From assembly GCA_947034885.2 (NCBI GenBank), contig OX344751.2, positions 9,362,001 through 9,426,000 of the forward strand: a stretch of 64,000 nucleotides of DNA. Reading direction: 5' to 3'. This document shows positions 1,745 to 27,795 of this stretch, piece by piece. The stretch comes from Thuidium tamariscinum. Taxonomy: Eukaryota > Streptophyta > Bryopsida > Hypnales > Thuidiaceae. Every line of letters starts with the position of its first letter. The stretch's first letter is position 1. A program made the translations under genes and the position numbers. Under the pieces are notes generated by a model, which saw only the letters and a list, made by a program, of their open reading frames with translations, did not search any database and had not been told where the DNA came from.

Positions 1745-2340
1745 CCAAAGGTGGTCCATGACATCATTGCGCAATGTATAATGTGTATGCCTGTTCTTGA
1801 GCTCACGAGTGCCAATATTGAGGTTGTAGAACGTCAAGACCCGTTGCATGCCTCCTCTCAGAATGTCTTGTTGAAATATAGGCTCTAAGTCTTCACCTTA
1901 CTCATCTTGAATAATCATGTTGTGCAAGATGATACAACACATCATGATGTCATTGATTGTGTCCAAATCCCATTGACGGCATGGATTCTTCATAATCTCC
2001 CATTGGGCTTGCAATACTCCAAATGCATGTTCCACATCTTTACGAGCAATAGAGTGTAGTTTAGTGTAGTGCTCCCTTTTTTCACCTTGAAGTGCTTGGA
2101 TAGGTTGGATCTATCAACAAATAGTACCGTTGATACAAGTGACCATTAATCTCAAAGGTAATGCCATTTCCTTCACCTTGCAATAGATTGCTAACAAAAG
2201 GTGAGCGGTCTAGGACATTGAGGTTGTTGTTTCCCCCGGCAATCCAAAGGGATTGGTCAACTATGGCTTTTAAGATTATACTTTGAAATCCATCTTTGTC
2301 ATTGTATTGTCCTTGCCAAGCAACTAGACAATTCGTCCAA
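1745..2340 (-). pseudogene. PIF/Harbinger transposase, 3' half (split gene)
   Basis: On the - strand this encodes the C-terminal half of a plant PIF/Harbinger DDE transposase. Visible family motifs, in order, are TNCLVAWQGQYNDKDG, NNNLNVLDRSPF, the NGH-YQRYYLLID block, and ARKDVEHAFGVLQAQW followed by LHNMIIQDE. These match the second and third catalytic-region blocks of the family. A deletion removes several residues before the NNN-NVLDRSP block, one frame change follows the YPSTSR segment, and a TAA follows LHNMIIQDE, so the gene is dead. Its 5' half lies 17 kb away at 19241-19866 on the same strand. The two were separated by the CACTA insertion that begins at 2341. The last 3 bp (CAA, 2338-2340) are the left copy of the CACTA target duplication. 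Confidence 0.85.
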
Positions 2341-2361
2341 CACTCTAGAAAAAAGAGTCTG
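2341..2361 (+). repeat. Left terminal inverted repeat of the CACTA element
   Basis: CACTCTAGAAAAA, matching the right end with one central difference (CACTACTAGAAAAA). It lies immediately after the CAA duplication at 2338-2340. Confidence 0.85.
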
Positions 2362-3351
2362 TTTTCGCATAGATTGAATTGATTATTGTTGATTTCAGCA
2401 ATTATTTATGCTAAAATGGCTAATTTGTCCATTTTGTTTGGACAATCAACATAGATTGCCTAAACAACATAGATTTTTGTTGATTTATGATCAATCTTGA
2501 GTTAACCTATATTTAACTAATTATGGACAATTGCATGAATTATGGACAAATTCATAGTCGCAAGCCACCTGAGAACGTGGAAAAGACGCTTCAAATGATG
2601 GAAAAGTGTCGGCAGCCCACCCACACCTTGTTGAGAACGAGCAGTTGCATAAGAAAGGAGAGGATTGTTGACTGTTGGACCATTTTTAGTGGAGTATCAG
2701 AAGCGGTGCCTATAACCGTGCACCCATCCCGTGGCCAATGACATGTATAGGCTGGCAGCCGATAAGAGAGCAAAGTAAAGTGCGCCAGAAGAGTAAAACA
2801 GGACAACGAGCATGACATGTAGAGAATTTCCTGCACCGTTTGTACACTGAAGATAAAACAGTTGCAACATGGTCCCCATAGGAGATTCAGATAAATATGT
2901 AAAGAAAGTACATAAACTCGCAGCAAGTGCTAAATGCAAGGACCTAACAACCGAAGAGGACAAAGTATTGCCTGAGAGAGTAACGTCCTCCGACTAGCCC
3001 TGTCGGTAGCCAACCGACAAATATGTAAAATGTGAACTGCCTAGTCATAAGACTTCTAGTGCCATCCTATGAAATATAAAGGCCCACCGTAAAATAACAT
3101 AAAGTCCCACCGAAGAAGATAAGAATGCACATCCTGAAATGAGTAAACATTGAGGACCTGCACGTAATGATCTTAAAGTGAACATTCTGCTGACGAACCG
3201 CGCGACCGTGATGCAGCCAAGCTCGTCGTATCGGCTGGCAGCCGACATCTGCATGGAGAAGACGAATCCGTGTTGCAATGTGTTGTTGACATAACTGGAG
3301 ACCACAAATGGTGTATCGGTTGGCAGCCGATAAGTCCGAGTCGATGTATCC

Positions 3352-6300
3352 TTAATCGTCTCCGGCATTGTCTGCATCTTTGTCGAGAGTTGCGCCCGCG
3401 GCCTCTAGATTCGCAATAGCAGCAACAACGGATGCCTCCGGGATGACATAAGACGTGGGAGGTCCTTTCTTTGCATGCGAGGGCATTCTGTGCGAGTACA
3501 AGACAATGTTGACATGGACCATCTGCGGAAGACAGAGTTCCTTGTGCCATCTTCGAGTCCAGCACTCCCTCGCGATAAGCGCTTTGGACTCCCTTTTTGC
3601 TTTCATGGGAGTCCACCACTCGATTTTAAAGATTCCATAGGTTGGCCCCGGAGTCATGTCTACACATTCGAGTACCCGTCCCAGCCAGACAGGCAGGTGG
3701 TTGTTGTGACATGGTCGACAGAGCACAAAGTCTCCGAGCAGAACATCCCTGAATGGATTGAATCTCAATCTTGGCCTGTCCTTGGCAGGTCCGCAGTATG
3801 GAGTGGGGTCCCCTTCGTCCTCCGGAGTGGTGTCCATTGAATAATTTTCGAGCGCCCCCTTGTCTAACGATGTGGATGTGTGATCCCTTGTCCAGTCCGA
3901 GAGCGGCCATAATCCTTCTTGAAGCAATGCAGGAGTTTGTGGCAGCGGTGAATTGATCTCTGCTTGAATTCTTTCCCAGTAAGCCACACAACCTGTCATT
4001 TCCTGTGCGTATCGTCTGTCTCTGGCCATTCCAGATTTCCAGAATTCAATGAATTTAGCGATTCCGTTTTTGATGAATGTCTGTTTCTCATTGCACTCTG
4101 TGGCCCTTGCGACTTCATTTTCCGCTTTTCTCTTTCTTGGATTAATGTCTACATTCCCCCAGAGTGCCTTGAAAGGCACAAGTCGAGGTTCCCCCTGAGG
4201 AATGTTGGGTTTCCCATTTTCATCCGTTGTCCACATTTTGACGGGTGGTCCAGGAGGGAGCCATGAAGAATCCGTGGCCCTGACCTTGTACCTCATGACC
4301 GGCCATCCCCGATCGACCCCATCCTCTACGACGTAGAACTTGAATAGGTGTTTATCTCCTAGCCCTATGATTTTGTTGACCCCCTCATGATGGAATCCTC
4401 TGAAGTATGATTTGAAGTCCGCCACCTCTTGCACGAACTCCGGAATGAAGGCTACCGTTTTCTGTGAGTCCATGAACGCCTTCATGAGATCCGCGAGAAC
4501 GTAAGTGTTCTTCCTCTTGATGAGTTTAGAGAGGTAACTGAAGTGCGCGTCAATGTCCTCGTGCGTATGTCCGACAATGAGGAATCCGACTGAAACTTCC
4601 TTGAATATGCGCCTGGCAGTGAGCAGTGAGCAGAAAGCCATGAGGAATCTGTTCTTGTTGTCCTTTGCCGAATTGTCGAGTTGCAAGAAGAGTTTTTTGG
4701 GCAGTGGGACCTGAGGTCGCCCTGGCGTTGGTGCGTCTGTGACCTTGTCCGATGACTGCGGGATTGACGAGCTGCATCTGGATTTTCCATGCAGTAGAGC
4801 CTCGAAGAAGCTGTTTAGCGGTGGAGTGGAGAAGAATATCTTTGATTCCCTTACAGGAGGTAGTTCTAGGGCCCTGAGTACCCTGCAGATGGATGAAATA
4901 GTGAAATTTGAATCCCCCGGCCAGAGCGATGTTGAGTAATGCGCGTATGCGCCATCTCCATGTCCATGTGTGAGCATTCCAGTACAAGAGATTGGAATTT
5001 GTCCTAGTCCTGCGGTGGCCTTTGTGATGCGCTGCATCCTAGGAATGGCAGTCTTTGTGGTGTCCATTTTGTCATGAATAATGCAGAGGAACTCTGATGG
5101 ACTTTGCACTGACTGCACGGTCCATCCGCTGTATACATTTCTACAAGCGCGCTGGTAATTGAGATGTCTCTCTCTGTCGTCGACGAGTGCCTGCCACTCA
5201 TCACAACCTCTGGGATACTTTGCAATGAACTCTACGAGGAAGTCACACTCTGTGCATTTTGAGAAATTGCTCCCTATTGCCTTGACCTCTACATTTTTGA
5301 AATGAGCATTTCGAAGTCGGCTGATAGCAGACTGGGATACCGGCTCCATATTGCATATTCCATTGACCTGAAGAACATGACTACATGGATGAGTATCCAT
5401 GTAAGACGATAGAGTTGTATCGGCTGGCAGCTGACAGAACTGCGAGTGCCGGCCTACAGAAAGGAGAGATCTATGACTCCTCGATTCTAAGTCCAGCCTT
5501 GAATGTATCGACTGGTAGCCGACAGAGGTACATTTATACTGTAGACGAGGAGGCAGATGTTGGACTTACATAATTGACTTGTTCGCGTATGTGATCCCAA
5601 TTCATTGCAGAGGGTAGGACCTTGAGATTGTCGACGCGTTTATTTCCAACCATTCTAAACTCGTTCGGCATCTTGTCTGCATTCTCATCGATGATCGTTT
5701 TGAGTGTCGCTTGAGCTTGTATTGTTTGTGGCCGTGGCCGTCGAGCCCCTGCATTTCCATGCGACCCGTCGACGGATCCTCCGGCGGCCGCAGCCTTGTA
5801 AACGTGATAGGCCGACCTGGATCCCCCGTGAATGATATACCATGCGTTCTCGCAGACGTCTCTATTAGCAAGAGTGATGAATTTTTTTCCTGGAATAATC
5901 CCTGCATGAAGTTAACTCTGCACCGCATATGCTACCTCCCTCCTACTCTCGAATGTGCAAGCGAAGAACTTTCGTCGTATAGACCTAGTGTCCTCCCAGG
6001 GAAAGGTCTGGCAGCATCTGAGCTTACAGCACTTCTGTGAGCTGACCTTACGTACCTCTGCCTCCGAGGTCTTGATTTGCAGCCTGGAGTGGCTCTCTTG
6101 ATCCTTGGGAATGACCCTTTTGCGCACAGAGCGGTATGGATTCCTCGGTACCCCCTGCATTCCATCATCGTCTGCCTCCTTCAACAGAGCAGCCTGTGAG
6201 CAGAGCGTGACAATTTCTGATAGTAGCCTTCCCCCCTCCAATCTTGTGTGTGTGAGCTTCCAGCGCATGGTTGTCATTTGCAGTTCGTGACTGTCTGATA

Positions 6301-7501
6301 CGAACATGACCCCAACATCCGTGTCGCCCAGGACGCCATCATCGCAAGCCTCATCTGGTAGGCAAACTTGTATCATGGCTCTTCCCAGTACCGAGAAGTC
6401 GTCATTGAGAAGTTGATAGTATTGATTTCTCCAGAGTGGTCTATCTGGGATTGGAAGTCCATCTTGCACTCCAACCAGATCAGCATTGTCACCCCTCTGA
6501 GTACCATCTCTGAACGCATCCGAATGATCCATGTTGTCAGCAACACTTGCGTCGGACGCGACAGTGCCAGAGGTGTTGTAACCATGAACATTGCGCTGGT
6601 CGTGTGCAGACCCGCGGCTGTCCTCGTCTGACGAATAGAGTCTATCATCTTGCTCGTCTTCATCTGATGCAGTAGGAAGTACCCGCTGTGATCCCGGATC
6701 ACCGAGTTCTATCTGCACATTGTTCGAACTTCCACCACTCTCACAGTTCCCATCGATCTGAGGTTGCATGAAATTGGTCGAAGGTGCTCCTGTCGGCTGG
6801 TAGCCGACAGCGTTGGCCAAGGGGACAGATGTTTGGATTGGTCTGACCTTGTAACCACTCCAGAGTATTTTGTATCCTACACAACGTTTGAGTGAGATGA
6901 AATCAGGAATCTCGCAATAGGCAGTGTGATTCTTGAAGTCATCGACGACGTGTAGGAGCTTCACAACGAGGAAGAAGCTGTGTGGAATGCGGAAGCCTCC
7001 CCAGTACCCCTTCGGGGAGTACTCTACAATTGTCCCTACACCAACATAGAACAGAGTGTCGCCCAGAGTCTGGAGAAGTGAGACATCCATATTGACAGTG
7101 AGTGACAGAAATCGCTGTATGGGTTTTTCATCAGTGAGCACTTGTGTCGGCTGCCGGCCGACAGCAGCAGCAGAAGACCATTCCGCGTCTGCGTGCGGAT
7201 AAACGTTGCCTGCCTCCCACACGATTGAGCTTCCCGAGCAGTGTCTGAGGAAAACCATGTCTCCCTCCGGAAACGGAAGAGGCATATCGAGGTTGTTTGG
7301 AACATCTAGGACATGAACGCGCACGAGGTATGGATCGCGGCTGACCACCCTTTCTACGACCGCCCTTCCAGCGTAGTATAATCCTTCTAGTGTGAGAGCC
7401 ACAACAACTCCCTTCTGCAGTTTCAGTCTTCCGGACCCGCCATTTCTTGTGAACGCCTCAATAGGACTGGCACCCGAGGTCCATTCATCAGAGCCACTCA
7501 T
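3352..7501 (-). CDS. Candidate transposase with DUF7869/RNase-H-like domain, 3 exons, about 1265 aa
   Basis: The exons, in - strand order, are 7501-6052, 5901-5570 and 5367-3352; phases fit and the frame stays open to the stop at 3352-3354. ATG at 7501 begins MSGSDEWTSG. Exon 1 (483 codons) is acidic in its C-terminal part and unrecognised. Exon 2 carries a conserved block, CENAWYIIHGGSRSAYHVYK, then a stretch ending near MPNEFRMVGNKRVDNLKVL. Exon 3 has a Cys-containing segment, IIHDKMDTTKTAIPR (residues about 690-704), LFLQLDNSAKDNKN (about 820-833) and VGHTHEDIDAHF (about 859-870). These resemble the D..., QxDN and GHTHxDID blocks of DUF7869-type proteins, which look like RNase-H/DDE folds. 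I infer it is the element's own transposase; family assignment is from memory of motifs. Intron 2 and both flanks contain 19-bp palindromes, and two more are in exon 1 in frame (VGYQPT, VGRQPT). It is the only intact large gene in the element. Confidence 0.75.
6791..6809. repeat. Palindrome copy in coding frame (VGYQPT)
   Basis: TGTCGGCTGGTAGCCGACA lies within exon 1 of the large - strand gene and is read in frame as part of AVGYQPTG, without stop or frame damage. A second in-frame copy is at 7145-7163 (VGRQPT). Confidence 0.85.
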
Positions 7502-8416
7502 GATTCGAAATCGGGGTGAGAACCCAGACTGTGGGAATTTCTGCTTCCGGAAAACCCGTGATGACCTTATCGGCTGGCAGCCGATACGTTTGTGTATCAA
7601 ATGCTTGACGACCTAGCAGATACGGAAATCGGTATCGGCTGGCAGCCGATACCACTGTCCGTACGGTCTAGCACAAGGGCAAGACCGTACAATTGGAACT
7701 CCGGGGATCACGCACGAAGCTAGATTTTTCAAATCCTATGATCTACGCACTGTCCACAGATGCTTGGACCAGGCTGAATCAAGAAATGGAAGCACAAACG
7801 CAACCAAATAGGAAATCAAGAACCTATGACAGGCAACTAATTCTCGAAAATGCAATTGAAATCCTCCTGCAGTTCAAATCTGTCTCCCAGCAATTGAAAT
7901 CCTACTGCATTTCCTACGTAAGCTTGAACGCCAAATAACATCTGTCCCTCAGCGCTTCCTGAACAAGAGGACTACTGAATACCTAAGCTCTGCACTGGGC
8001 TGAGGTCTACTAAATTCCCTCTCTAACGTTGCATCCTTCCTAAACAACAAGCCACTACAATTCCCTCACGGTTCTTGGACGCTCTGAGTGTGTGTGGGGG
8101 AAATGAAAATGGAAAATGAAGTCCTCCAAGATCAAATCCTAGGTGAGCATGCTTGTGACTGAACTTGGCGCCTGAAATTTGAATCTGAAAGAGGATGAAG
8201 TTGTGGTGATTGCAAGAGAGACAAGTCCGTGCATCAGGTGATCGTGGGTGGAAACGTACGCATCTGAGCAATGAGTGTTCGTCACTTGCATGTACCTCGC
8301 TGGATGTGGAGTACACGAAAGCGGATGGAAACCGGTCGATGGATGAAATCTTTGGATGAAAAGCGGCGATGGATGAAATCCTAGGATGAACGGACTCGGT
8401 TTGTCATCATTGCGCC

Positions 8417-8435
8417 CCTCGGCTGGCAGCCGAGG
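8417..8435. repeat. Palindrome copy with compensating arm change
   Basis: CCTCGGCTGGCAGCCGAGG: the usual outer TA/TA pair has become CC/GG on both arms, so the dyad is preserved although the bases changed. Confidence 0.85.
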
Positions 8436-8489
8436 GTATACCCCCCAGGCCACTTTCATTTTCTGTCATTTGCCATTTGCGCTCCTGCT

Positions 8490-8532
8490 CTCCCTCTCCC
8501 TCTCTCCCTCTCTCCCTCCCTCTCCCTCTTGC
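8490..8532 (+). repeat. CT-rich microsatellite
   Basis: Irregular CTCTCCCTCTCCCT repeats just upstream of the proposed + strand gene start, in the position of a plant pyrimidine-rich (Y-patch-like) leader. It may be promoter-related or simply low complexity. Confidence 0.8.
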
Positions 8533-8572
8533 CTTCCAGCTTGCAGCTGACACCCCGACGCAGAGCAGAGGC

Positions 8573-8670
8573 GCAGCCGACAAGCGTTTCTGGGCAGCCG
8601 ACAAAGAAGGAGTGCGCGGCAGGCGTTTTCTTCAGCAGCCGACAAGCCATTCTGAGCAGCCGACAAGAGT
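8573..8670 (+). repeat. Cluster of four half-palindromes
   Basis: GCAGCCGACAA occurs four times with about 20-35 bp spacing (near 8574, 8592, 8636 and 8657). This is the right arm of the 19-bp palindrome without its left arm, placed just before the proposed ATG at 8684. Confidence 0.75.
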
Positions 8671-8683
8671 GAGTCCTTCGGCG

Positions 8684-11600
8684 ATGGCATCCTCCGGTTT
8701 GGCAACAGAGGGGTACTTTTTCTTTACATGTATCGGCTGCCAGCCGATACATTATTATTTGTCGATTATTTTGAGTGCAGCCATTGAGAGTCTGAGGCAC
8801 CTATGGGTTGTTGTATCGGCAGCCGACAGGCGTTTCTGGCAGCCGATATAAATCTGGGACAGTGGTCTTACGATGATCTGTAAATGACTTGGGATGGTAG
8901 GGTTTAGGGACTGTGGCTGTATCGGCTGGCAGCCGATACACTAGATGCAGAAAGTGGAGTTACATAGTGACAACTTACTGAGAATTGAAATGTATTGTTT
9001 TGTAGGAAACCGACTCTCTTGGCCCGAATGTTGGGTGAGCAAATCCCGAACTCTGGGATTTTGGGTGACGGGTTTCCACCACGAGCAACATGGCGAGGGA
9101 TCGAGGCCATCCAGGAATGGGGCCTGTGTTGGAGGCAGGCACCCGACAAAAAAGTGGACATCGCATGCTCCTTCAAGTTGAAGGGGAACATGACCCCTGG
9201 CAAGGGAAGTGTGTTGTCCGTCAGGGCTGCTGGCGAGTGCATGCATGTCATGATATGCTTGATGCCAATAGCAAGCACGGTCGGAGTCCCTAACTACTTC
9301 GCCGTGGAGTTGCCGGTGAACAAGTGCACGGAGGAGGTCTGTGGACAGAAGTCCATGTCCATGGGCATGACATTTGGCGACAACACACCGTCGACTGCAG
9401 AGGAGCTCATCCAGGGGTGGGAGTGCCTGAAGCAGGAGCGCGATGAGCACAATGCATTCGTCGCTCGAGAGCTGGAGAAGGGGAAGAAGAAGGTACCGGC
9501 CGAGAGGAAGCTGGTGGCGGCGACAGTGACTGAGGTCGCTGAAGCCGATCTTGAGGAGCCAGCGTCCCCGACCAAACCAAAGCGGAGAGGAAAGGGCAAG
9601 GATGACCCGACGAAGCCGCTGAAGCTCACATTGGACGAAGCACTCCGGCGTGGAAATCACCTCACCATGAAGACCAAGGAGAACGAGGTGAACGCGATTT
9701 ACCAGGCGCTGGAGACGGGCCTCCTGCACGCGTTTCCTTACAAGAAGCAGCGTCTTCCGGGGGTCATTCACTCGGACAAGCTCCACATTGCACCGGACGA
9801 GCTCAAGTACCGGAAGATTGCAAAGGACCGGCTGGGACAGGTAATTGGATGATCACTTGTATCTGTCGTTCATCAAAGTCATTTCATATCTTGTATCGGC
9901 TGGCAGCCGACATGTCTAACTAGTCATTAATGTTTTGGCCTTCTGTCATTTCAGGTGAAGACCATGTATAAGGGATATGGGTCCATCAGGAAGAAGCCGG
10001 AAATTCATGGGGTTCCACTGAAGCGGGCTCCAATGCCCAAGGACAAAGGGCTGGATGCAGTGATGGACAAGTGTCCCGGGCAGGACGACGTCACTGTTGT
10101 CAACGGCGTCTCAATGCCGTGGTGGAAGGCGCCGGATGTCCACTGGTACATCATTGGAGGGCAACACACGGTGACGGCCTGCCGAGAACTGGCCGAGCAG
10201 TATGCCAGTATCCCGACGGATCTGAAGCCAAAACGGACCTCCTGGAGTTCGAGGTGATTCCGGTGTTTAGCAGAGACCCGGACACACTCGTTAGAGTCTC
10301 CAATGCCCTCAATCTCAACATCGCTGAGAAGGTGGCAAAGGAGAACTTCAGATCCTACGCAGAGATGGGAAGAGCGGCGTGGGTGAAGGCGGGATGCCCA
10401 GAGCTGCATCGTGGAGGAGGCAAGCCGACACCAGCATTCGAGGTAGTACCCACATTTCCTTTCTTTCTATTCGTATTTGCTCATTACGTTATGTATCGGC
10501 GGCCAACCGATACCTTTGTGCTCTGTTCTAAGCATTGCGGTTGAACTCTCAGGCTGCGAAGCTGAAGGTGATGGCGCACTTCGTGGAGGAGAAGGTGTCC
10601 TCCAAGTTGCCACTCATCTTCATCAAGGAGGGCACCTGGGAGTTGTGGACGGAGGTGTTCGATGCGTGGGAGAACGGCGAACTCATTGGCGATGATGGAA
10701 CAGTGCCCAATCTCCTGGTCAACCGGAAGCCGCTTACGCACATCACCAAGACGGATCTCACGCCAACGCTGGGGCTTCGTGATTCAGATCTGTGCGAGTT
10801 GGGGCGGGAGATTGTGGCACTCCGCGTGAGCATCAAAAACACCGCCAAGGCAAAGTCCTCAGGGAAGATCACTCTCTTCGACTAGTGCAAGGACCAGGGT
10901 TGTTCTGCCGGACAGTGCGACATCGCGACAGACAGACGTCATACAACGTCTAGTAGAGCCCTCGTGACGTCTCATTGACTAAAAATTAAGTTGACTTAAA
11001 AATAAATCATTAGAAATTTAAAATTTTGACATATATAAGTTGGGTTTCAATTAAGTGTTTCAATTTTATGAATACATATTACATTCTTCATTTAGGTTCA
11101 TAGTAATAGTAAGATTTTCATTTTTTTGAGCTGCTGAAAATGGACTTTCGCGACGAGGTGGGACATCCTTCGTAACAAGTTGTCACCGTGACACGCGACG
11201 TTGGACGTCGTACACGACACCCAAACCCAAAAATATGTTTGACAAGACAACCCTGGCAAGGACAAGAAGCTCGACAGGATCGTCATGAACGAGATCATGT
11301 GGACCAGGAAGAAGTACCCTCTTCCTTGCAAGGACGCAGGCTGGATCCCATATACGGATGAGGTTTGGAAGGAGCTGGCTGAAAAGGAGGGGTACTCAGC
11401 GGCCATAGTCCGGAATGTCTGGAAGGACATGATGAAGTTCACGGACGCAAGCAACTGGTTGAAGGGGCGAGTCAACCCCATGAATCCAACCACGGACAAG
11501 TCCACGGATGGCAAGGCGCCGGGGGTCTTCTTCATGACTTTGGCAAGCTACGTCAAAGTCCACTTGCCTCCCACGGTAGGCAAGTCAAGCGAACTGCAAT

Positions 11601-13154
11601 AGGAATGCCATGTCGGGGACAGTATTGCAAAGGTGGTGGACTTCGTTCGCCAATCGAAGGGGACGATGAAGTTGGAACCCGAGGACAAGAAATTCCTCGT
11701 CGTTTTCGGGTACACAGAAATGGGGGAAGCTCTAGCGGTGAACAGGAACGAGCTGCTCGATCTATCGTTGGCAGTTGAAATTTCGGACGGGGCAGCTGAT
11801 GAAGACAGAGACCCTTACATCCCCTTGCCAATGCTCCTCATCGGGAACTCGCGGTTCAGGGATTCAGTCGCCTCGACCGCGAACTCATCCTCGACCGACT
11901 GGTACTACCATGCAGTGTACTACCAGCCATCTCCCCGGGGAGGCTTTCTGAAGGCAGAAATTGAGTCAAGGCCTCTGGTCACTCTCTCTTTGACCTTCCC
12001 GAAGCCCGAGGACAGGCTCAGTGTTTTCCCGGTCTTCAAGCGCTTCACTGGGATCCACAAGGCGCTCGACTTGTTCAATTTCGACGTCGAGGGGGAGGTC
12101 GACTGGAATGGCGGGATGTGCGGGGTTGGCCATAGGCTCCTCGAGAAACTCATGCTACCCACCCTCAAGGCCAAGGATGCCACAGTCATCAACATCTGGG
12201 GTGGTGGTAACATCACGGAGATCGCTCTGGTACGTTTTCTTATCCCATCCTCACACTTGCATTGTTCTCAGGAAGTCACTTTCTGTCGGCTGGCAGCCGA
12301 TACAATTGATGGCTGACTTGCACTCCATGGCTTTGCAGAGGAATGGATGGGCTGTCATGGAGTTCGTTCGGGAGGAGGAGGGATTGGAGAAGGCCAAGGA
12401 ACGTGTCAGGGGAATGAACCTCCTCTCCTCGGATGCCCTAGGACCTTCTCAGGTGACGCTGGCGGTGACAGACCACGAGGGGCAACCGGCACAGGCGTAA
12501 TCTCCTCAGCAACCGCGGCCGTTGTCCACCCTCGTTATGCCCCAGGCTCCGGGGGCCGCAGCTCAAACTCAGCAGACGCATGGTCAGTCTCAGGAGCAAC
12601 CACCAGTTGTGACGGTTGATACTGACTCAGACTCAGAGAGCTCCCCGGAAGCACCACTCATTCGAAGGGAGCGGCAACCACGTCCTTCGTCTCCGAGGCC
12701 TTCGCTCAATCCACCCCCGACTCAAGATCTGGACCACCCCGTCCTACTCCCACATAGAAACTCCTCGCACGCAATGGTCGTGGATCTGCGCGCGGAGCCA
12801 CCGTCGGAGGAGATAAGTAGGCTACCTCTGCCTCAGGTGGTTGTCGCGGCGATGGAGCCTCAGGTGGGAGTCACTGCACTTGGGCGATCGGCGACTATGG
12901 CCGACATTCGTGTCGGCGGCCAGCCGACACCCATGGACACTTCTCCGCTGGAACCAAGACGGGGAAGAAGCAAGGGGGCACCACTAGAAAAGGAGTCGGA
13001 GTCGGCGGACTCGCGCCGCTCAACTCGGGTCTTCTTCAAGCGGAAAAGATCAAACGAGAAGGACGCTGGCGCGGTGGCGCGGACGCATGACTTCCCCAAT
13101 GAAGAGATGTCTCCCGTCCGATCTCAAAAGAGGACGCAAACTGGAGGTTCGTAG
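8684..13154 (+). pseudogene. Decayed multi-exon + strand gene of the CACTA element, ParB-like GGQH motif
   Basis: Proposed exons are 8684-8712, 9006-9840, 9955-10442, 10553 to 12229 (interrupted by a hAT-like insertion at 10895-11255), 12339 and onward. Phases fit at the junctions. ATG 8684 begins MASSGLATEG. Exon 2 has a Lys/Glu-rich linker. Exon 3 contains HWYIIGGQHTVTACRELAEQ, resembling the GxH motif of ParB/sulfiredoxin-like domains, followed by EVIPVFSRDPDTLVRVSNAL. A frame change near 10225 separates these two parts. In-frame stops occur at 10883 (TAG), 11600 (TAG) and 12498 (TAA), with coding-like sequence continuing in the same frame each time. The last exon is Pro/Ser-rich and encodes RVGGQPTPMD from an in-frame palindrome at 12911. 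Each intron contains at least one 19-bp palindrome. The function is not known; a DNA-binding accessory protein is one guess. Confidence 0.6.
10895..11255. mobile_element. hAT-like non-autonomous element inside the + strand CACTA gene
   Basis: The ends CAGGGTTGTTCTG and CAAGACAACCCTG are inverted repeats. They are flanked by the 8-bp duplication GCAAGGAC (10887-10894 and 11256-11263), as hAT elements make. The inside is AT-rich in the middle, with no coding potential. Element plus duplication is 369 bp, a multiple of three, so the host frame is the same on both sides. Confidence 0.85.
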
Positions 13155-13417
13155 GCAGTAGACATGCTCCGCGATGTTTGTGGAGTATCATACATAGTTC
13201 GTTCATAAGTAGCACTGCCTGGCTCAGACTCATGCGTAGACATGTCAGTAGGAGCCGTTTTGGGGGCAGACTAGACTTCCTCTCGACTATGTTGGCTGCC
13301 AGCCGATACAGTGCAGAAATGTTTTGTCGGCTGCCAGCCGATATAGTGCACAAATGTTTTGTCATCTACCTAAGTTCATACCATCTCATGTTCTATGTAT
13401 TTCGTGTGGCAATGCAG

Positions 13418-14259
13418 ATGATGACTATCACAAGTCTGACAATTCCTCCGACACCGTATCTGAAGCTGGGAATGTCAATGTCCAACAACAAACACAAGAT
13501 AGAGCATGGACTCTCGACAGTGCTAGCCCTGCTCAGGTAGCGACTCCGAAGTTGTTTCTTTTCCTTGAAATTCAGGGAACTCTACTTTTCTATGAGCCAC
13601 TCATTGTCAAAGGGAAGAGTATGACTCAGAGGTCGACAGTCAGAGAGAGACCAGGTCTCCGGGAGTTCATCCTGTTCTGTAAGGGTCAAGACATTGTAAT
13701 TGTCTACTAGTCAATCTTAACCAAGAACACTCTCGAGCAGCGCCTCCATAACCTTAGATGGAAGGCGCCGGAGATCGGAGAGGATTACCTGGCCTTTGGA
13801 CAGGAGTTCTGTGATGAGAGTACTTATCGAGACCCTCAGAATGCATCGCGACCAATTTTTCTGAAGCGTCTCGCAAGAATTCTCGGAGCATCCTCCTTGT
13901 ACGATATGGGCGCCACGATCAACAACTCATTGATCGTGGACTTGGAGCCATATAGGAACGTCTTGAATCTGCCGTTTAATGCGATTCATCCGCCCCCCGT
14001 CACCATGTACTCGGAGAAATCACTCAAGGCAGGGAAACTGCCATTTCTCCAGGCGACACTGATCCCGTTCATTGAACGGCTCTTGTCTTCAGGACTCACG
14101 GTCGCACAGTTCTGTGAGAGGAACTCGTCCATTGGGCTTGCACGATGTATGCCGGGAACCCCGATGCATAATCAGTACGTGAATGTGACACCGCACTATC
14201 AGAAGGGATTCGAGGTGCCATATTCACAGGAGGAGCTAAAGGAATTGGGAATTGCATAG
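13418..14259 (+). pseudogene. FCP1/NIF-like (HAD-type) phosphatase-like module 1
   Basis: After an intron ending at about 13417 (it holds palindromes at 13291 and 13325) the frame reads KLFLFLEIQGTLL, then RPGLREFILFCKGQDIVIVY, and later NNSLIVDLEPYRNVLNLPFN. This is the order seen in FCP1/NLI-interacting-factor phosphatase domains: a D-x-D/N-x-T strand, RPGL-EFL, W/Y-S, then an I-DD/N block. The nucleophile Asp position reads Glu (LEIQGT), so catalysis is doubtful even if expressed. A TAG at 13708-13710 interrupts the frame exactly before SILTKNTLEQ, where relatives often have W-S. The frame then runs open to a TAG at 14257. It is probably the downstream part of the gene starting at 8684, or a separate gene of the same element. 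Confidence 0.6.
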
Positions 14260-14716
14260 CACTCGCAAACGGATGGAGGAGGCGTAGTGTATCGGCTGCC
14301 AGCCGACACACTCTTATGTACATTGTACATACTCTCTGTAGATACAACACGGATAGACCAAATCTTCTAGGGACATTTTTTTCTTCTATATGGATTAAAC
14401 ATTTTTTTGTAATGAAGACATTATAGTCAGAGTTCTTCTAAAGCGTGCGCATGGCTCACTCTCAAAGCATTCCAATGTTTCCTTTGAGAGTTTCATCATT
14501 AGGTCTTGGACTTGGGAATCGATTGATTGCAATAATGTAGGGGCAGGCACTCACTCATCTCTACTGTCTATCTAGCACATGTCTTTCTCAACAATTAATG
14601 CTTCCTGCTGTATTGGGTCAAGCTCTAGTATCGGCTGCCGGCCGATACCTAATGCATGCTCTTCTTTCATCGGATGCTTATGTTGTGGAGTCATGTGTCC
14701 ACTAACTTATCTTCTG

Positions 14717-15372
14717 TTCAGGAGTCCAACGTGGGCCATACACAGTCCTTCAAGAAATGTGTGGTTCTAGGAGTCACGGGACTACTTTGTTATCTCGACC
14801 CGAATATCAAGGTGGACAAGTCAGACCCACACAGAAACGTCATTAAAAGGCTTGGGCTAGTTCATATGTTCATCACATTGTTTCAAAAGTTTCACGTAGG
14901 AATTTGGTCAAGGTTGCCAATACTTTAGCTTAGGCCTCTGCTTGCGCACTTGCTTCCAAAACATATCAGAGACAACATAGCATTCGTTTATGGCAGAGAG
15001 TACTGTGTAGATAGCCTCAAGTTCCCGTGGTGCTACAAAATGCTCTCAATACTACATACTAAGAGACCATCCAGGATTACATGCTTCACGGACCAAGTGC
15101 TCATCATCGATGTGTGCCCGCTTGTGCTCAGGAGGACGCCGGATACGGCGTGCTATATTCCGAGACCATTCAAGGGAGATCTCAATTTCCCAAACACTAG
15201 TAGAGTTATTCCAAACATTTCAAATGATATTATTCCATTCATTTATCCAATGCACCAATATCAATCACTCTCAGAATACATCAAAGGCGCACAGAGACTG
15301 GGACAATTGCACTATGAGGTTGCACAATCTATTAAGTATGGAAAGCCGAATTGGCAGGGGATATTCTGGTGA
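14717..15372 (+). pseudogene. FCP1/NIF-like phosphatase-like module 2
   Basis: A likely splice acceptor (ttctgttcag) precedes 14722. The frame reads CVVLGVTGLLCYLD, then LGLVHMFITLFQKFHVGIWS, a TAG at 14926-14928, then LRPLLAHLLPKHIRDNIAFV and GREYC, and later DQVLIIDVCPLV. This is a second FCP1-like domain in the same order as module 1, again lacking the nucleophile Asp (LGVTG). It ends at TGA 15370. Palindromes lie on both sides (14290, 14629, 15387). Two tandem FCP1-like modules in one transposon are unusual; the family call rests on motif order only. Confidence 0.5.
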
Positions 15373-15925
15373 TTCAGCAAACATCGTGTCGGCCGCCAGC
15401 CGATACAACGGTAGTGGAATCGGGGAGGCTACAAGACCCTTTTTCAGAAATTGGAACAACTCATTTCAGAGCCAGTCCTATCGAGTCCATTGCCTCTTCA
15501 CTACAGGACCTGCTCTCTGGAGTTTTCGGGGGGGGATATCGGCTGCCTGTTGATACGCGCGATTTTATTACTTGGGTCGGATGGACTAGGGTTTAGGGTT
15601 TAAGGTCCACAATTTGTCGCGCTTCATCTTACAAATGAATGCCGTAGCACTTTACGCACTTAGGACACTTTCAGAGGTCTAGGTGCTCTAGTGTGTGATG
15701 TTAGGAATCGGCTGCCAGTATCAGGCGCCAACCGATACTTTGTCACAAATTAGGACACAACACACGTGTTTATTTAACAATAAAATTTCATAAACTATTA
15801 CCTCTCAACTCTTTTATGGGCCAGGTGTTGTGATACTTTGGTTTCTTTAGTGCTTGCAGCCATTTTGGTTCATTGCTTGTGGCACACAAAACTATGCATT
15901 CGAATATATCGGCTGACGGCCGATT

Positions 15926-16915
15926 TATTTCTGGACTATAGATTTGTCCATAATTAGTTAAATATTAGTTAGTTTAATCAACATAGATTGTCTAAAATTG
16001 TTAACTCCTATTTATTTGAAATGTATAATCATTGAAGAATAAAGACTTCAACTAAAATTAAAATAGTCTTTTAGAAAATTTTAGAATCTTTCAAAATCTT
16101 TTTGGAATCTATCAAAATCTTTTAAATCCCTCAAAAACCTTTTAGAATACTTTAGAAATCTTTCAAAATCTTTTAGGAATCTTCAAATCATCTATCTAAA
16201 TTTTATTACTAGAATCTTTTTTTAAATCTATTAAAAGTTGTTAAATATATTGGAATCTTTTCAAATTTATTTGAATCTATTCAAATTTTTTTTTTTAAAT
16301 TCCAAAATCTTTTTAAATCATTTGGAATCTTTTGGAAAATATGAATTCCGATCTTGAATTTTAATAAAAAATTTATCAAATATGATTTGAATTTAATTTT
16401 TGAATTCCAATGAAATTCAATAGTTATGATTCAGACTTAAAATTTGATCAAATTTTTTATCAAATTTAGCTCTAATTCAAATTTTGATTCAAATAACTTA
16501 ATGAAAATTCGAACTTTGATTTACTTAGTCTAATTAATTTCAGATTTGATGAGAATCCTAATTCTAATTCTAGTGCAATTTTTATCCTATACAATATATA
16601 GTTTGATTAGAGTTCAAACTTACAAGTTCATTGAATTTCTTACTTATATTTTGAAATATTTTTGTTCTAAATCTAATTTGATTTTAATTCTAAATTTTGA
16701 ATCAAAAAAGTTAAATTTTTGAGCCATTTACAATTCAATTTCAAACTTTCAATTATTTGAATATGAGCTCTTTAAGCCTTACATTGTCAACAACATTTTT
16801 CTACTAAAACATTCAATATTCAATTTTTGGTGCACTCATTCAAGAAGCCAAAAATATGTATTTTTTTAAATCAATTCATAGGATTGGGCACAATTTCACT
16901 TTTCCTAAATCATAT
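15926..16915. other. AT-rich right arm of the CACTA element with degenerate short repeats
   Basis: About 16040-16345 is built from degenerate units of the kind 'aatcttttagaatctttcaaa'. No gene is visible. The 15951-15996 stretch carries the subterminal motifs shared with 2.45-2.53 kb. Confidence 0.6.
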
Positions 16916-17637
16916 GGGTGATTGCAAGAAACACCTGCCGATTTTGTTGCGTTTGGCTGATTTTTTCGGGAGTACTTTAAAATTAGAAAATTAATTTTAA
17001 AAAAAATTTAAAAATATGAATAGTGTATATACCTCTAAGATGAAGGTTTTCACTGAAGGAAATGGATAGGAAAATTCTCTAAGTAGGAGAACTTGAAAAG
17101 TGCCAAACCTCTAGAAAATACATATCTTCATGTTTTAATTAGGGAAAAATAGTAAAAATAGATATTTTCAAAAAATAAAAAGTGAACATTTTGAACAACT
17201 TTATGTAGATGGTCATTCACAAAAAAACCCACTAAAATAATATTTTATATGTTTCAAAATACAAGCAGAAGGGAGCTCACTTTGTAGACCTCCACACCAC
17301 ATAAAATTAACTATTTTTAAAAATCCTTCCCTGGAGAGCTAGAAGTCTATTAAAAGACCATCTCATCCAAATTTCATCTTATAATCATTAAAAAAAGGTA
17401 CTCCATAGTAATAACAAACCCTAAACTACCAAGTGTGACATCCAATTGGGGTCTATTTTTGGATAGTAAAATATTTTTGAAAATTATGAAAAATTTATGG
17501 AAGATTTATAATAGTTATGAGTACCTTCCCTACAAATCTTGCGTCAATCAGAGCCAAAACACAAAAGTTATGGCCAAAAAACAGATCAACACACGTAGTG
17601 TGACACAAAATAGGACAAGTGTTTCTTGCAATCACCC
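16916..17637. mobile_element. 722-bp TIR element (GGGTGATTGCAAG family), copy 1
   Basis: It starts GGGTGATTGCAAGAAACACC and ends with the inverted copy, ...GTGTTTCTTGCAATCACCC. The flanks are a 4-bp duplication ATAT (16912-16915 and 17638-17641). It has no coding capacity. It lies in reverse orientation relative to the copy at 26087-26809, with which it is similar along its length. It is nested in the CACTA right arm, so it is younger than that insertion. Confidence 0.85.
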
Positions 17638-17641
17638 ATAT

Positions 17642-19219
17642 TCTAAAATATTCTAGGTTGTTCTAGCAAATAAATTTAACCTTGAAATAAAATTTTGATT
17701 GAAAAAGAAAATTGCATCAACAAATGAATTGTATAGATTATTTTATCACTAAATTTCTTAAATGCATATAAACTAAGAATCTTAAAAAAAATTTTAACAC
17801 AAGTACAATTAAAGTGAATCAAAACTTCACATATACATAAAACACAATGTTTGAGTGAAAAATAATCAAAAAGTTTTATTTTGACAATTTGTGAGGTTGT
17901 TTGTATTGCCTACCAAGTTTAGTTTTGAGCTTATTTTAGCAAAGCTTTTGCTCCCAAGCACTAATTGAAATAAAAATTATAATTGTAAGAATATAATAAG
18001 ATTTTTGTTATATGTCAAAGTTTCATCATAAATTGAAGTCATACAAACTTGTTTAAAATCCATTTTGTCTTTTGAAGGGATACTAGTAAATAAAAGTAAA
18101 TAATCTAAACTTTGAACTATTCAAAATGTAAATTTTCAAATATTCAAAAGTTTTGGCCAAACTACTTCTAGAAAATTGGTTGTAAAATTCTACAAAAATG
18201 TTATAAAAAATTGAAAATTTTACCAATAAAACTAGACTTCAATATCTATTAAGTCCAACAAGTTTTATAGAAATCAGACTTATGACAAAGGAGAAAATGG
18301 CTTGCAAAGTTGGCTGACTGTAAAAATATAGTGGAAATGAATGAATTAAACTATCTTTTGCCAAACAAGCTCTAGAAAAATGGTTGTCAAAGTTTCCAAA
18401 CATCTTACAAAAAATTGAAAATTTTACCATTGGAACTAGACTTTGATATCCATTGAACCTCCTATCAACGGTTATGGACAAATTTCAAAGAGGAATTAGA
18501 AAGAAAATTTTCAAAGAGGAATTAAACATCCTCTCTGAAATTTGTCTATAACTTTTGATTGGAGGATCAAAATTACAAATGGATTTTTGGAGATGAAAGT
18601 TGAATTGATTCACTACATTTTCTTCGTTCAAAGTTTTTTGAAAAAAATCATTCTACTATGCCTAAACAAGGTCTGAAATTTTACTTAAAGTATATTTTCT
18701 AGTTTTTGACTTAACTATAAGTGGTTGAGCTCCTACTCATCCAAAAACCACATCCCATATGGTTTGTCCGACTTCCTACTACATCAATTGTATAAAGAGC
18801 TTGTCTTCTTTCCATTGAAGCACCAAAGTAAGTGCCATTCAAAGATTTCTTTCTCTATCTATTGAAACACTTGGAATGTGGTGTTGTAATTTTATGCCAT
18901 TTCTTTTGAAGAACAGAATCTATATTGGGAACTTTAATAAATTATGCTTCAATTTATATAGTTATAATTTAATTTATTTAATTTTAATTAATGCAGCAGA
19001 TTTTTCCTATATGGTAGTCCACGTGGCAAATTTTTTGTTAATAAAATAAAAATAATATTTGATGACGCGGCAATTATTCAAATCTGACGTGGCACATTCA
19101 TGAGGACATTCATCCTATATGGCATAATCAACAAAAACTCTGCTGAAAAGTGTCCTAATCAAGCTGTCCAAACCAACTCTTTTTTTAGTAAAAATATACT
19201 AAAATATATGCTGAAACGG
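17642..19219. other. AT-rich CACTA right-arm sequence with a tandem duplication
   Basis: No gene seen. The stretch about 18160-18270 is repeated with changes at about 18358-18470 (both contain 'aaaattgaaaattttacca' and 'actagactt'), a period near 200 bp. Two CACGTG/GACGTGGCA motifs lie at about 19020-19095, close to the right terminus. Confidence 0.5.
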
Positions 19220-19240
19220 ACATTGATTTTTCTAGTAGTG
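19220..19240 (-). repeat. Right terminal inverted repeat of the CACTA element
   Basis: Read inward it is CACTACTAGAAAAATCAATG; it is followed by the CAA duplication at 19241-19243. Confidence 0.85.
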
Positions 19241-19866
19241 CAAGTCCAATGCATACAATCTAACCTACCAAACATACCCGGGAAGCCATGAGTGGTATTG
19301 ATGCCTATTTGCTTATGCAAATCATCCAAGGTTGGTTGCCTCAAAAATGTAGATTGAAAGCAACCATGAATAGCAACTACAAAACATTTCATGGCCTCAT
19401 TTGCAGTACTCTCTCCTATACGACAATACTCATCTGCAACATCTCCTGAAATACTGTAGGCAAGCATTCTTATAGTTGCAGTGCATTTCTGTAATGAAGA
19501 TAACTCTAATCGCCCTACCCCATCATGCTTTTGTACAAACCAAGGGTCAAAAGCACATACCTTTTGCACAATGTGTAAGAATAATTCTCTCCTCATGCGA
19601 AAATGTCTAAATTTGGATGCATCGAAAGTACAGTTTTGTGCAAAGTAATCTTGAAACAAGCGGTCATGACCAACTTCCCTCTCTCGAAGCACATACCTTC
19701 TTCCAATCATGCTACCTCCACGTCTAGGTCTTGATGAAGATGAAGCCTCTTCAAGCCCTTGGGAAAACAAATTTTGGAAAAGCTCTTGCTCATATTTGCT
19801 ATCAGAAGATGATTCTTCAAACCCTTGTACAATAGCTCTGTCAAGCTCCCTCCGCCACTGTTCCAT
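19241..19866 (-). pseudogene. PIF/Harbinger transposase, 5' half (split gene)
   Basis: ATG at 19866 begins MEQWRRELDRAIVQGFEESS. Family blocks follow in order: a Ser-rich N-terminus, GRRYVLREREVGHDRLFQDY, FRHFRMRRELFLHIV, QKCTATIRMLAYSISGD, DEYCRIGESTANEAMKCF and GFPGMFGRLDCMHW. This is the N-terminal part and first catalytic Asp region of the plant PIF/Harbinger transposase. It stops being Harbinger at the CACTA terminus (19240). The remaining half is at 1745-2340 on the same strand. Joined across the CACTA element with one copy of CAA removed, the frame continues correctly into TNCLVAWQGQ. Confidence 0.9.
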
Positions 19867-19989
19867 TAGCACCCTAAACCCTAAATCTAAGAAATCAGCC
19901 GACTAAACCCTGTACTAAGGTATATATTTTATGTTTAAAATTTCTAATCATACTGTTGTCCTGTCTTGTGCACACAAACGTAATTTTCT

Positions 19990-25077: not shown

Positions 25078-25157
25078 TTTATAAGATTAAATGTATAACT
25101 TAGGATTGTATATAGTGTTTAAGATTATTAGGAATATTAATCAAGAAACTTTTTTAT

Positions 25158-27795
25158 TTGAAAGTTGTAAGGTTTTTGACGACTTCTATTGTCAATGATG
25201 ATTATATAGAAGAGATAGAGGATATCAAATCTACAACAAGTGGTGAGACTTCTACTCCGATGTCAATCAATGACCTAGTAATTCAACAAATCCGGAGTAA
25301 ATTGCAAATATCCGAGTGGAGCGTGCATATGGCAAATATACTCCCCAAATGCTTGGCATCATCACAAGTGAAAGCAAAGATGGATGTTCTAAGATCAAAG
25401 ACTAATCGAATCAAGCTTCAAGAAAAAATGTCATGTTTGGAGGGTGAAGATGAGTTTGAAATAGCCTTACAAATCTTTCAAGCAATAGAAAAAGGTAAAC
25501 TAGAAGTGTTTAAGAAATTGATGAACGAAAAGGTGAAGGATTGGAATTTTCAATTAGAAGAGTATGGAAATATGACCCCCCTTCTTTGGGTAGTATTACA
25601 TGGGCAAAGGATGATTGTGGGAGCCATCCGTGAACATGCCTTGTCCAATGGATCTACGAGAGCAATGTTTTGGATTTTTGATAAGTTTCGATTTAGAATC
25701 GTGAATGTGGCTGCTTTTACATATTTGATAGTGCCAAATACAAAGTCAAGCTATGACAATGTAAAAAAAATGCTCGAAGATCTTAATGATTGGGAACATC
25801 AATCTGGAGTTGATCTCGGATACATGGCCTTACAATTGGAGAAGAACTATACTCCTTGCAAAATTTATTATGGTATTGAAGATACACCTACTTCCTACTA
25901 TGTAGATGACCTTGGCCACCTCGGCTTTTATATGAGCCCCCTCCATCTGGCAATATGGTTTGCTCCCTATCAAGCTGCCATTCAAATAATTGCTACACGT
26001 CATAGAGATCTCAAGAGACCAACTGGTAATGGACAAACCGTATTTCACCTTTGTGCATGGAAAGGTCGACATGACATTTTAGAGTGGGGTGATTGCAAGA
26101 AACACCTGTCCTATTTTGTGTCACACGTCGCATTCTGATTTGTTTTTTGGCCATAACTTTTTTGTTTTAGCTCTGATTGACTCAAGATTTGGATGGAAGG
26201 TGCTCATAACTATCACAAACCTTCCATAATTTTTTCATAATTTTAAAAAATATTTTACTATCCATAAATAGACCCCGATTGGATGTCACACTTGGCAGTT
26301 TAGGGGTTTTCTATACCTGAGCTATACCTTTTTTTAATGATTTTGACACGAAATTTGGATGAGATGGTCTTCTAATATACTTCTAGCTTTCTAGGGAAGG
26401 ATTTTTAAAAAAATTTAATTTTGTGAGGTGTGGAGGTCTACAAAGTGAGCTCCCTTCTGCTTGTATTTTGAAACATATAAAATATTATTTTGGTGATTTT
26501 TTTGGTGAATGACCATCTCTATAAAGTTGTCGCAAATGGCCACTTTTTAATTTTTGAAAATATCTATTTTTACTATTTTTCCCTAATTAAAACATGAAGG
26601 TATGTATTTTCTGGAGGTTTGGCACTTTTCAAGTTCTCCTACTTAGAGAATTTTTCTATCCATTTCCTTCGGTCAAAACCTTCATCTTAGAGGTATATAC
26701 ACTATTTATATTTTTCAAATTTTTTTAAAATTAATTTTCTAATTTTAAAGTACTCCCGAAAAAATCAGCGAAACGCAACAAATAGGACAGGTGTTTCTTG
26801 CAATCACCCAGTGGTTAATACATTTCATAAAACGTGATAGCCCTGATATTCCCTCGGATGCAGGGAATATTTGTGATAATGATAGACAATCTGCACTTCA
26901 CCTTGCTATACTGTCCCAAGACAAAAAGACTGTTGAGGTCCTTCTTCGAACAGAGGCCATCAAGGTGACAATTAGGAATTGGAAGGGGTATACACCAATG
27001 GAAATTGCAATTGTCCTTCATTCTACGAGCCCATCAACAATCACTATAAAGGATTTGAAGCGCTTTGGTGTCACAAGCTTCAACATTGAAAGCTTGGGCT
27101 TGACCTATGATGTTGGAAACGTCAATGTTCAAAATTTCACAATGTATAGGATACATTCAATTGAATGTAAAAAGGACATGAAAGCACTAAATGAAATTAT
27201 CTCATTGTTTGATGGTTTGGATCCTGAAGCTTTGCAAAGGGATAGACAAGTATATGTAGATGCAGCAAACGCCATCCTTATTGGTGCGGCACTTATTGCA
27301 AGTGCTTCATTTGGTGCTTGGCTTCAACCTCCTTTGGGTTACATGGAATACTATTCCAATGAATTTTTGGTCAAGCAACCAGCTGCTCCACCACAAACCT
27401 ATGAATCATTTGTTGCTATTAAGCAATACTGGATAATCCAATTGTTTTGGATATTCAACAGCTTATCATTCTTTTTTTCCATTGCAACTGTGATTGCAGG
27501 AGCTGATGCAGCATTGCCTGAAAAGCATTTGAAATTGATAGAAGCTGTGACAAGTGTTCGCCATGGAGTAATTTGGGCCTCTTATTTGTTGTTTCTATCA
27601 GTGCTTTGTGTCATTGGAACCTTTACTACCATTGGTTTTGCAATATTGCCACCAATTCCCAAATATAGGGTGAACATGTATTGTACTATGGCTATTGGAC
27701 TTGCAACTTGTGGGGTTGTGTTGATAAGATTCTTACAAAAACTTGAGAGTCTATCATTGTTGAGGTCTTGGTATACTAAGAATTATAATCCTTGA
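25158..27795 (+). CDS. Ankyrin-repeat protein with C-terminal PGG-type membrane domain, interrupted by a 723-bp element
   Basis: The coding parts are 25158-26086 and 26814-27795; the frame is continuous if the element and one AGTG copy are removed (637 codons from 25158). The first ATG in frame is 25260; an upstream exon may be missing. The N-terminal half is unrecognised. Ankyrin-like blocks read MSPLHLAIWFAPYQAAIQII, GNGQTVFHLCAWKGRHDILE and DRQSALHLAILSQDKKTVEV. The C-terminus has the PGG-domain layout: ANAILIGAALIASASFGAWL with PPLGY in place of PPGGY, then three more hydrophobic segments (about 27430-27510, 27565-27650 and 27680-27735). Plant relatives (ACD6/ITN1 group) are plasma-membrane proteins linked to stress and defence signalling. 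Whether this copy still works depends on splicing of the insertion. Confidence 0.8.
26087..26809. mobile_element. 723-bp TIR element inside a coding exon, copy 4
   Basis: The ends are GGGTGATTGCAAGAAACACC and ...GTGTTTCTTGCAATCACCC, and the duplication is AGTG (26083-26086 and 26810-26813). It is similar in reverse orientation to 16916-17637. It splits the codon stretch DILEW|LIHF of the ankyrin-PGG gene. A GT at 26089 (TGGG|GTGATT) and an AG ending the 'aacaaatag' near 26785 would splice in frame, leaving a few extra residues. Confidence 0.88.

Follow-up and report, generated by a model that had tools for sequence, protein, structure and literature searches.

A dispersed palindromic word private to a DUF7869-encoding transposon of the moss Thuidium tamariscinum

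In a 64,000-nucleotide stretch of the moss Thuidium tamariscinum (contig OX344751.2, positions 9,362,001 to 9,426,000; the window, whose own numbering is used below), a 19-bp palindrome, TATCGGCTGSCAGCCGATA, recurs throughout one transposon, which we call F1, and we confirm it as real and private to that element. F1, which encodes a DDE-like DUF7869 protein, is a separate transposon nested in a CACTA element, since its genomic copies align only over about 2504-15970 and lie in unrelated flanks. The initial annotation had placed the palindromes inside the CACTA core; they belong instead to this 13.5-kb element with 27-bp inverted ends and 4-bp duplications. We lean slightly towards reading the palindromes as sites for a dimeric factor that the transposon itself would encode, that would coevolve with the word and that would likely act in anti-silencing, in the manner of VANC but with unrelated proteins.

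The word in the window and in F1 copies

We counted 22 matches to TATCGGCTGSCAGCCGATA at up to 3 mismatches in the window, all within 2746-15925, compared with a mean of 0 in 100 dinucleotide shuffles. A relaxed word, TRTCGGCTGSCAGCCGAYA, which has R/Y at positions 2/18, gave 23 matches at up to 3 mismatches and 27 at up to 4 (approximately 27 copies had been reported initially); dropping two doubtful matches, at 2607 and 9130, left a working set of 25 sites. Markov simulations on the composition of the element (order 1, 3 and 5, 60 runs each) yielded means of 0, 0.03 and 1.7 against the 23 observed. Furthermore, in a scan for recurrent palindromes with 6-base arms (at least 3 occurrences for odd spacing, at least 4 for other spacings), this word was, besides its other registers, the only one containing G or C. 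Outside 2.6-15.93 kb no match at up to 5 mismatches occurs anywhere in the window, the nearest strings being two with 6 mismatches at 43991 and 57377, which bears out the claimed absence from the remaining 50 kb or so.

The sites, all given on the plus strand, are spread over introns, flanks, leaders and exons, as had been described. From the left, those at 2746..2764, 3229..3247 and 3314..3332 were found by both the fixed and the relaxed word scans, as were the two in the intron at about 5371-5567 (5418..5436 and 5506..5524); a site at 3001..3019 is degenerate in the window copy and fits the relaxed word without mismatch in seven of eight other copies. Two exonic sites follow, B at 6791..6809 and A at 7145..7163, read on the minus strand as VGYQPT and VGRQPT, respectively, and then two sites in the leader of the left gene (7568..7586 and 7633..7651, fixed word scan). 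At 8417..8435 (relaxed word scan) both outer ends have changed jointly (CC...GG). The leader of the right-hand gene holds a site at 8731..8749 (fixed word scan) and, at 8574..8665, four same-strand half-sites, CAGCCGACA, starting at 8574, 8595, 8636 and 8657 (spacing 21, 41, 21); this block is visible in nine aligned copies, with single members decayed or missing. Two remnants at 8814..8848 were fused by a deletion in the window copy, both sites being present in the eight other aligned copies, and the site at 8920..8938 fits the relaxed word without mismatch in 9/9 aligned copies. The fixed word scan also found one site in each of the introns at about 9841-9955 (9894..9912), 10442-10553 (10494..10512) and 12231-12340 (12284..12302). 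An exonic site at 12911..12929 reads VGGQPT, and the intron at about 13149-13414 contains the sites 13290..13308 and 13325..13343, one in each of two 35-bp tandem units (32/35 alike). Further right lie 14290..14308, 14629..14647 and 15387..15405 (fixed word scan) and three degenerate sites at 15537..15555, 15719..15737 and 15907..15925, the middle one from the relaxed word scan and copy alignment and the others from the fixed word scan. Thus each of the five introns that could be placed by inspection (boundaries accurate to within a few bases) holds one or two sites, the three exonic sites all translate as VGxQPT, and, with exon limits approximate, 22 of the 25 sites are non-coding (4.6 per kb) versus 3 coding (0.35 per kb). 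The stretch CCGACACACTCTTA after site 14290 (window 14290-14316) recalls a maize TnpA motif, presumably by chance.

Ten F1 copies were fetched from the same genome (363 Mb), nine with the left end (a-i) and seven with the right end (a-g), j being partial. Comparing site positions among copies, we found them kept across nine aligned copies, apart from site 13290, which two copies lack, and a pair of sites that fall past the end of one stretch. Copies a-h have 26-28 sites each at up to 3 mismatches to the relaxed word, and the partial copies i and j have 16 and 20. Variation at position 2 is independent of that at position 18 (Fisher p 0.66), the variable pair is an A-C mismatch in 5/23 sites, and the arms do not covary. 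Across the nine copies, from one of which the sites had been picked, A/T site positions vary less than other non-coding DNA (5/1410 vs 323/19441), as do CpG site positions (31/810 vs 140/2642). The central base is mostly G on the left side and C on the right (window 2746-15737; Mann-Whitney p 0.0035), a split that is confounded with gene sense.

Related families and species

Counting the exact 19-mer genome-wide, as had been suggested, gave 130 occurrences, and 0 for the reversed control. An F1 gene lies within 12 kb of 98 of the 100 listed places (within 6 kb of 96), and the remaining two fall within F1 fragments, at 90% and 95% identity. The claim that the word is private to one element therefore stands for all 100 listed places. 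This distance count took in 41 of 55 DUF7869 matches and 40 of 55 right-hand gene matches. A genome search for DUF7869 returned 69 matches, among them 41 F1-like loci at 86% identity or more (second pieces left out) and ten loci at 48-53%, which make up a second DUF7869 family, F2; 55 of the 69 matches, without 14 second pieces, entered the 60-kb distance counts between F1 and F2.

F2 has a dispersed palindrome of its own, YATCSGGAGATCTCCSGATR, partly in a 48-bp array (L031). Its variable pair is G-G in 15/41 sites, and exact genome-wide matches to its 18-bp core number 146 forward and 131 reverse, against 0 for the reversed control. An F2 gene occurs within 25 kb of 65 of the 75 F2 places listed, and no F1 DUF7869 gene comes within 60 kb of any of the 75. 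Conversely, no F2 gene was found within 60 kb of 50 F1 places (first listing) or within 20 kb of the 100 listed, the three F2 stretches (L027, L028, L031) contain no F1 word at up to 4 mismatches, and the F2 word was not found in the window or in six F1 loci tested. A third family, F3 (L030, transposase core 60% identical to F1), shows 14 decayed sites with a core YA-N-YR and an A at position 9 in 13/14. Sites of this type are absent from L027, L028 and window 20-64 kb; F3 and F1 are separable by the core alone, since the F3 scan also picks up F1 sites, and a guessed intact F3 word, TATCGGCCANTGGCCGATA, has no exact match genome-wide. A closer relative, L029, carries F1-type words in a 25/58-bp array. 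A tandem array of approximately 176-bp units occurs in two F2 stretches (L027 95-1205 and L028 7846-9919); as it is about 5 kb upstream of the DUF7869 gene in both, it could be part of the F2 element.

For other species we relied on peptides. Protein searches listed 151 relatives (from the mosses Ceratodon purpureus and Physcomitrium patens, the liverwort Riccia and other contigs), and 120 of 202 homologues from one search were scanned for the word. The left intron is read as translation in P0001, as CRLPAD and AGCQPI, and as YRRSAD or variants in P0011, P0012, P0014, P0016, P0017, P0019 and P0020; the right-hand introns and leader appear in P0121 and P0122 as CRLPAD, SAGSRY, YRLPAD and IGCQPI. 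Exonic site A aligns across relatives (IGGPPI, VGCPPT, VGRQPT and, in one group, IGCRPT-like forms), whereas site B falls in the same unalignable linker but in different columns. In the P0010 model the mean predicted local distance difference test score (pLDDT) is about 30 around both exonic sites, although for site A this is where a truncated protein ends. As three reading frames occur, it seems to be the DNA, and not one peptide, that is conserved. A first control on peptide matches was weak, with 3/1000 permuted palindromes equalling the protein count and 2 the match count, the two highest having one match per protein in 113-114 proteins. We therefore counted independent contexts, of which 18 were observed versus a mean of 0.26 and a maximum of 10 in 1000 permuted palindromes (0 reached 18), while 4/1000 matched in all three frames.

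Read from these peptides, both halves of the word appear to have changed jointly in other species. In groups that we assigned ourselves, window-like proteins have the predicted core CTG/CAG, Physcomitrium-like ones CGG/CCG (25 of 28 jointly readable) and Ceratodon-like ones CTG/CCG (6/7), and seven jgi proteins combine CCG or CAG with CAG (7/8). The Physcomitrium-type word, TATCGGCGGNCCGCCGATA, has no exact match in the T. tamariscinum genome, the listed Riccia proteins contain no word-like peptides, and in viral contigs neither the F1 word, the Physcomitrium-type form nor DUF7869 relatives were found. A scan of prokaryote genomes brought up two contigs of metagenome-assembled genomes with distant relatives and without word-like sites, which are probably eukaryotic DNA and were dropped. 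By eye, the F1 (window 12911), F2 (AGATCT) and F3 cores have symmetric adenines like those of adenine-methylation sites, and the Physcomitrium-type core has none.

Possible roles of the word

From the sites, their privacy among the listed places, the differing family words, the conserved placement and the non-coding enrichment, all observed directly, we infer binding, a binder and an anti-silencing effect. A dimeric DNA-binding factor encoded by the transposon family would bind palindromes over the whole element, one subunit per half-site, and protein and word would change together, giving each family a private word that largely retains the outer TATCGG/CCGATA and differs from the others in its inner core. 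Such a factor would coat its own leaders, introns, flanks and few exonic sites, and this coating would most likely keep its own family unsilenced and expressed and leave other elements untouched, as VANC does for VANDAL. The independence of positions 2 and 18, the half-sites and the non-complementary F2 pair argue for two subunits on half-sites rather than for hairpins. A broader version, to which we give somewhat less than even credence, is that several moss DUF7869 families each have their own dimeric protein, encoded by the element, together with a modular palindromic code (outer half-site retained, core specific to the family) that runs through leaders, introns and even exons as an exclusive address, which would serve their own un-silencing or the marking of their own DNA.

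To our knowledge, sequence-specific anti-silencing by transposons has been described for one plant group of elements. Dispersed palindromes are also read by a dimer in parS/ParB, from which F1 differs in being a eukaryotic transposon with no ParB profile match. VANC proteins have anti-silencing activity and target motifs in Arabidopsis VANDAL elements (PMC5735166, PMC10398659), and VANC is reported to diverge faster than VANA (PMC5735166). The VANC-like analogy drawn initially appears to hold in that F1, F2 and F3 carry short, dispersed, family-specific words, mostly in non-coding transposon DNA and different among related families of one genome, alongside a slower-diverging transposase. As in VANDAL elements, some words stand in tandem arrays (the F2 48-bp array and the 25/58-bp array of L029; F1 has the four half-sites and one 35-bp pair). 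In contrast to that system, F1 words are palindromic and extend over introns and exons of the whole body, and Pfam scans of the open reading frames (ORFs) of the window found no DUF1985. A second point of comparison is Sola1-1_Ec32, a giant Sola1 element of Ectocarpus that is reported to encode a ParB-like and DNA methyltransferase protein opposite its transposase (PMC12477816). Like it, F1 is a giant DNA transposon in which an accessory gene stands opposite that for the transposase, but profile searches found neither a ParB nor a methyltransferase domain in F1. The 4-bp target duplication of F1 is a Sola feature (PMC3627910, on Sola2), and Physcomitrella Sola1 is a listed moss example (PMC9033089). 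For giant transposons, accessory proteins that mark their own element have been proposed, with no target words named in the part of PMC12477816 consulted, and the palindromes could be the first candidate words of this kind.

Our observations suggest that transposon families carrying their own word mark their own DNA for a protein that they make themselves. Related families, several of them in one genome, differ readably in their words, which were not found near each other's genes, and close relatives exist in mosses with easy genetics. This opens two questions to testing: the joint change of a transposon protein and its dispersed targets, and the possibility that a private address frees a transposon from silencing while its neighbours stay silent.

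Judging from divergence, the most likely binder is the right-hand protein, which diverges fast, or failing that the N-terminal half of the DUF7869 protein; DUF7869, a DDE-like transposase protein of which we found no mention in the literature searched, is one of two candidates. Transposase core identity is 60% between F1 and F3 and 46-53% between F1 and F2, while right-hand exon 1 matches at 38-52% identity next to F3 and has no match at the ten F2 loci.

Several observations weigh against a self-encoded dimeric factor. F2 could use another protein, given the missing right-hand match, and fast divergence is also seen in the DUF7869 N-terminal half (partial matches of 32-62% at F2 and F3), so that neither candidate stands out as the binder. 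The right-hand protein has no recognised DNA-binding domain in profile searches, and its structural model is poor (pLDDT 41, five sequences). The central base is C on the sense strand in 19/24 sites, a bias that a plain homodimer does not predict, and the half-sites of the Ceratodon-type word are unlike each other. In the nine-copy comparison, non-CpG C/G site positions vary at least as much as those elsewhere in non-coding DNA (68/1466 vs 525/13919 letters), and C-to-T and G-to-A make up 13/30 of the departures from the word in the window. Finally, privacy is based on 100 of 130 F1 places and on 65 of 75 listed F2 places tied to genes, and the words of relatives are known from peptides alone.

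Element-encoded, family-specific binding would equally be expected if the palindromes were transposition or self-repression sites, at which a TnpA-like accessory protein or the transposase folds or synapses the 13-kb element or limits its copy number. The TNPA of Spm/CACTA elements does read element-specific, diverging repeats (PMC2613891), but those repeats are subterminal, whereas the F1 palindromes cover body, introns and exons; F1 is not a CACTA element, and its ends bear a different repeat, ATTATGGACAA (at 2520, 2539 and 15944). We regard this explanation as unlikely. Still less probable, in our view, is that the right-hand protein is a ParB-like and DNA methyltransferase protein that binds the palindromes and marks its own transposon DNA. 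The authors of PMC12477816 suggest, in the part consulted, that such proteins bind and epigenetically modify their own transposon, F1 shares the layout and the 4-bp duplications, and visual inspection of the right-hand protein shows GGQHT, similar to ParB/Srx, and GGGN further along. We keep this reading as a rival because profile searches, with no ParB or methyltransferase match, give it no support; the poor model noted above does not help it either.

The density of sites in leaders and introns and the retention of the word over many copies might also reflect a host transcription or silencing factor, which we consider very unlikely: two related families with different words in one host, not found near each other's genes, argue against a single host factor, and none of the 100 listed exact places lies outside F1 surroundings. 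A role at the RNA level, either in a hairpin or as a signal for splicing, would fit the presence of a site in all five placed introns and the sense-strand bias towards a central C, yet flanks and leaders carry sites too, and neither the A-C mismatches without covariation nor the G-G pairs of F2 are as expected of a paired stem, making it more improbable again. Hardly credible is the initially offered option of tiny mobile hairpins inserted in safe places. The intron bias, the near-identical units and the absence of site 13290 from two of nine copies speak for it, but 13290 belongs to a pair of 35-bp tandem units, and loss of a unit explains its absence. Target duplications of at least 3 bp flank 0-1 of 25 sites, against a random mean of 0.6-0.8, which argues against insertions, the arms do not covary, and the places are otherwise identical in nine copies.

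F1, its genes and its surroundings

F1 spans 2504..15970 with no strand assigned and measures 13,467 bp in the window copy, including a later insertion of 358 bp. Homology by blastn starts at 2500-2504 (copies a-i) and ends at 15970-15999 (copies a-g), and the exact ends were set by reading. The left terminal inverted repeat, AACCTATATTTAACTAATTATGGACAA (2504..2530, plus strand), matches the right one (15944..15970, minus strand), its inverted near-copy, at 25/27 positions, and the element is flanked by the target site duplication AGTT (2500..2503 and 15971..15974). Such 4-bp duplications occur in seven of the eight F1 copies having both ends, the window copy included, the exception being copy b. 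With ends AAC... and 4-bp rather than 3-bp target duplications, F1 does not belong to CACTA. The surrounding element (2341..19240, target site duplication CAA) has the CACTA termini and 3-bp target duplication of that group; it was the insertion target of F1 and lies outside the palindrome system. In turn, it splits a Harbinger transposase gene (Plant_tran; window 2082-2405 and 19159-19902), whose frame is open once the flanks are joined. The order of nesting is thus Harbinger, CACTA, F1 and finally the 358-bp insertion (10898..11255), found in the window copy and absent from all nine fetched copies spanning that position (a-h, j). Within the CACTA element, a stretch of about 730 bp with 26-bp terminal inverted repeats (window 16912-17641) is perhaps a miniature inverted-repeat transposable element.

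On the minus strand, F1 carries a DUF7869 transposase exon (3355..5370) with a predicted RNase H/DDE-like fold, and so presents both the domain and the fold expected of a DDE transposon of this kind, followed by the N-terminal part of the protein (5568..7501), which in the window copy has an in-frame TAA at 5912-5914. In the P0010 model this part forms Tudor/SH3-like barrels: residues 31-113 and 186-252 are predicted as tandem Tudor/Agenet-like barrels ahead of the transposase core, with weak fold matches including Spindlin, ADCP1 and 53BP1, and may read chromatin marks. On the plus strand, the first exons of the right-hand gene (9003..12230) are fast-diverging and gave no family; in the window they contain a frameshift near 10235 (by inspection) and stops at 10883-10885 and 11600-11602. 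Further right-hand ORFs (12341..15372, plus strand) likewise have no family match.

Rfam and tRNA scans gave no matches. Elsewhere in the window, ORFs with ankyrin repeats and a PGG domain lie at 25116-27792, and a zf-RVT match at 41921-42625 perhaps marks the remains of a non-LTR (long terminal repeat) retrotransposon.

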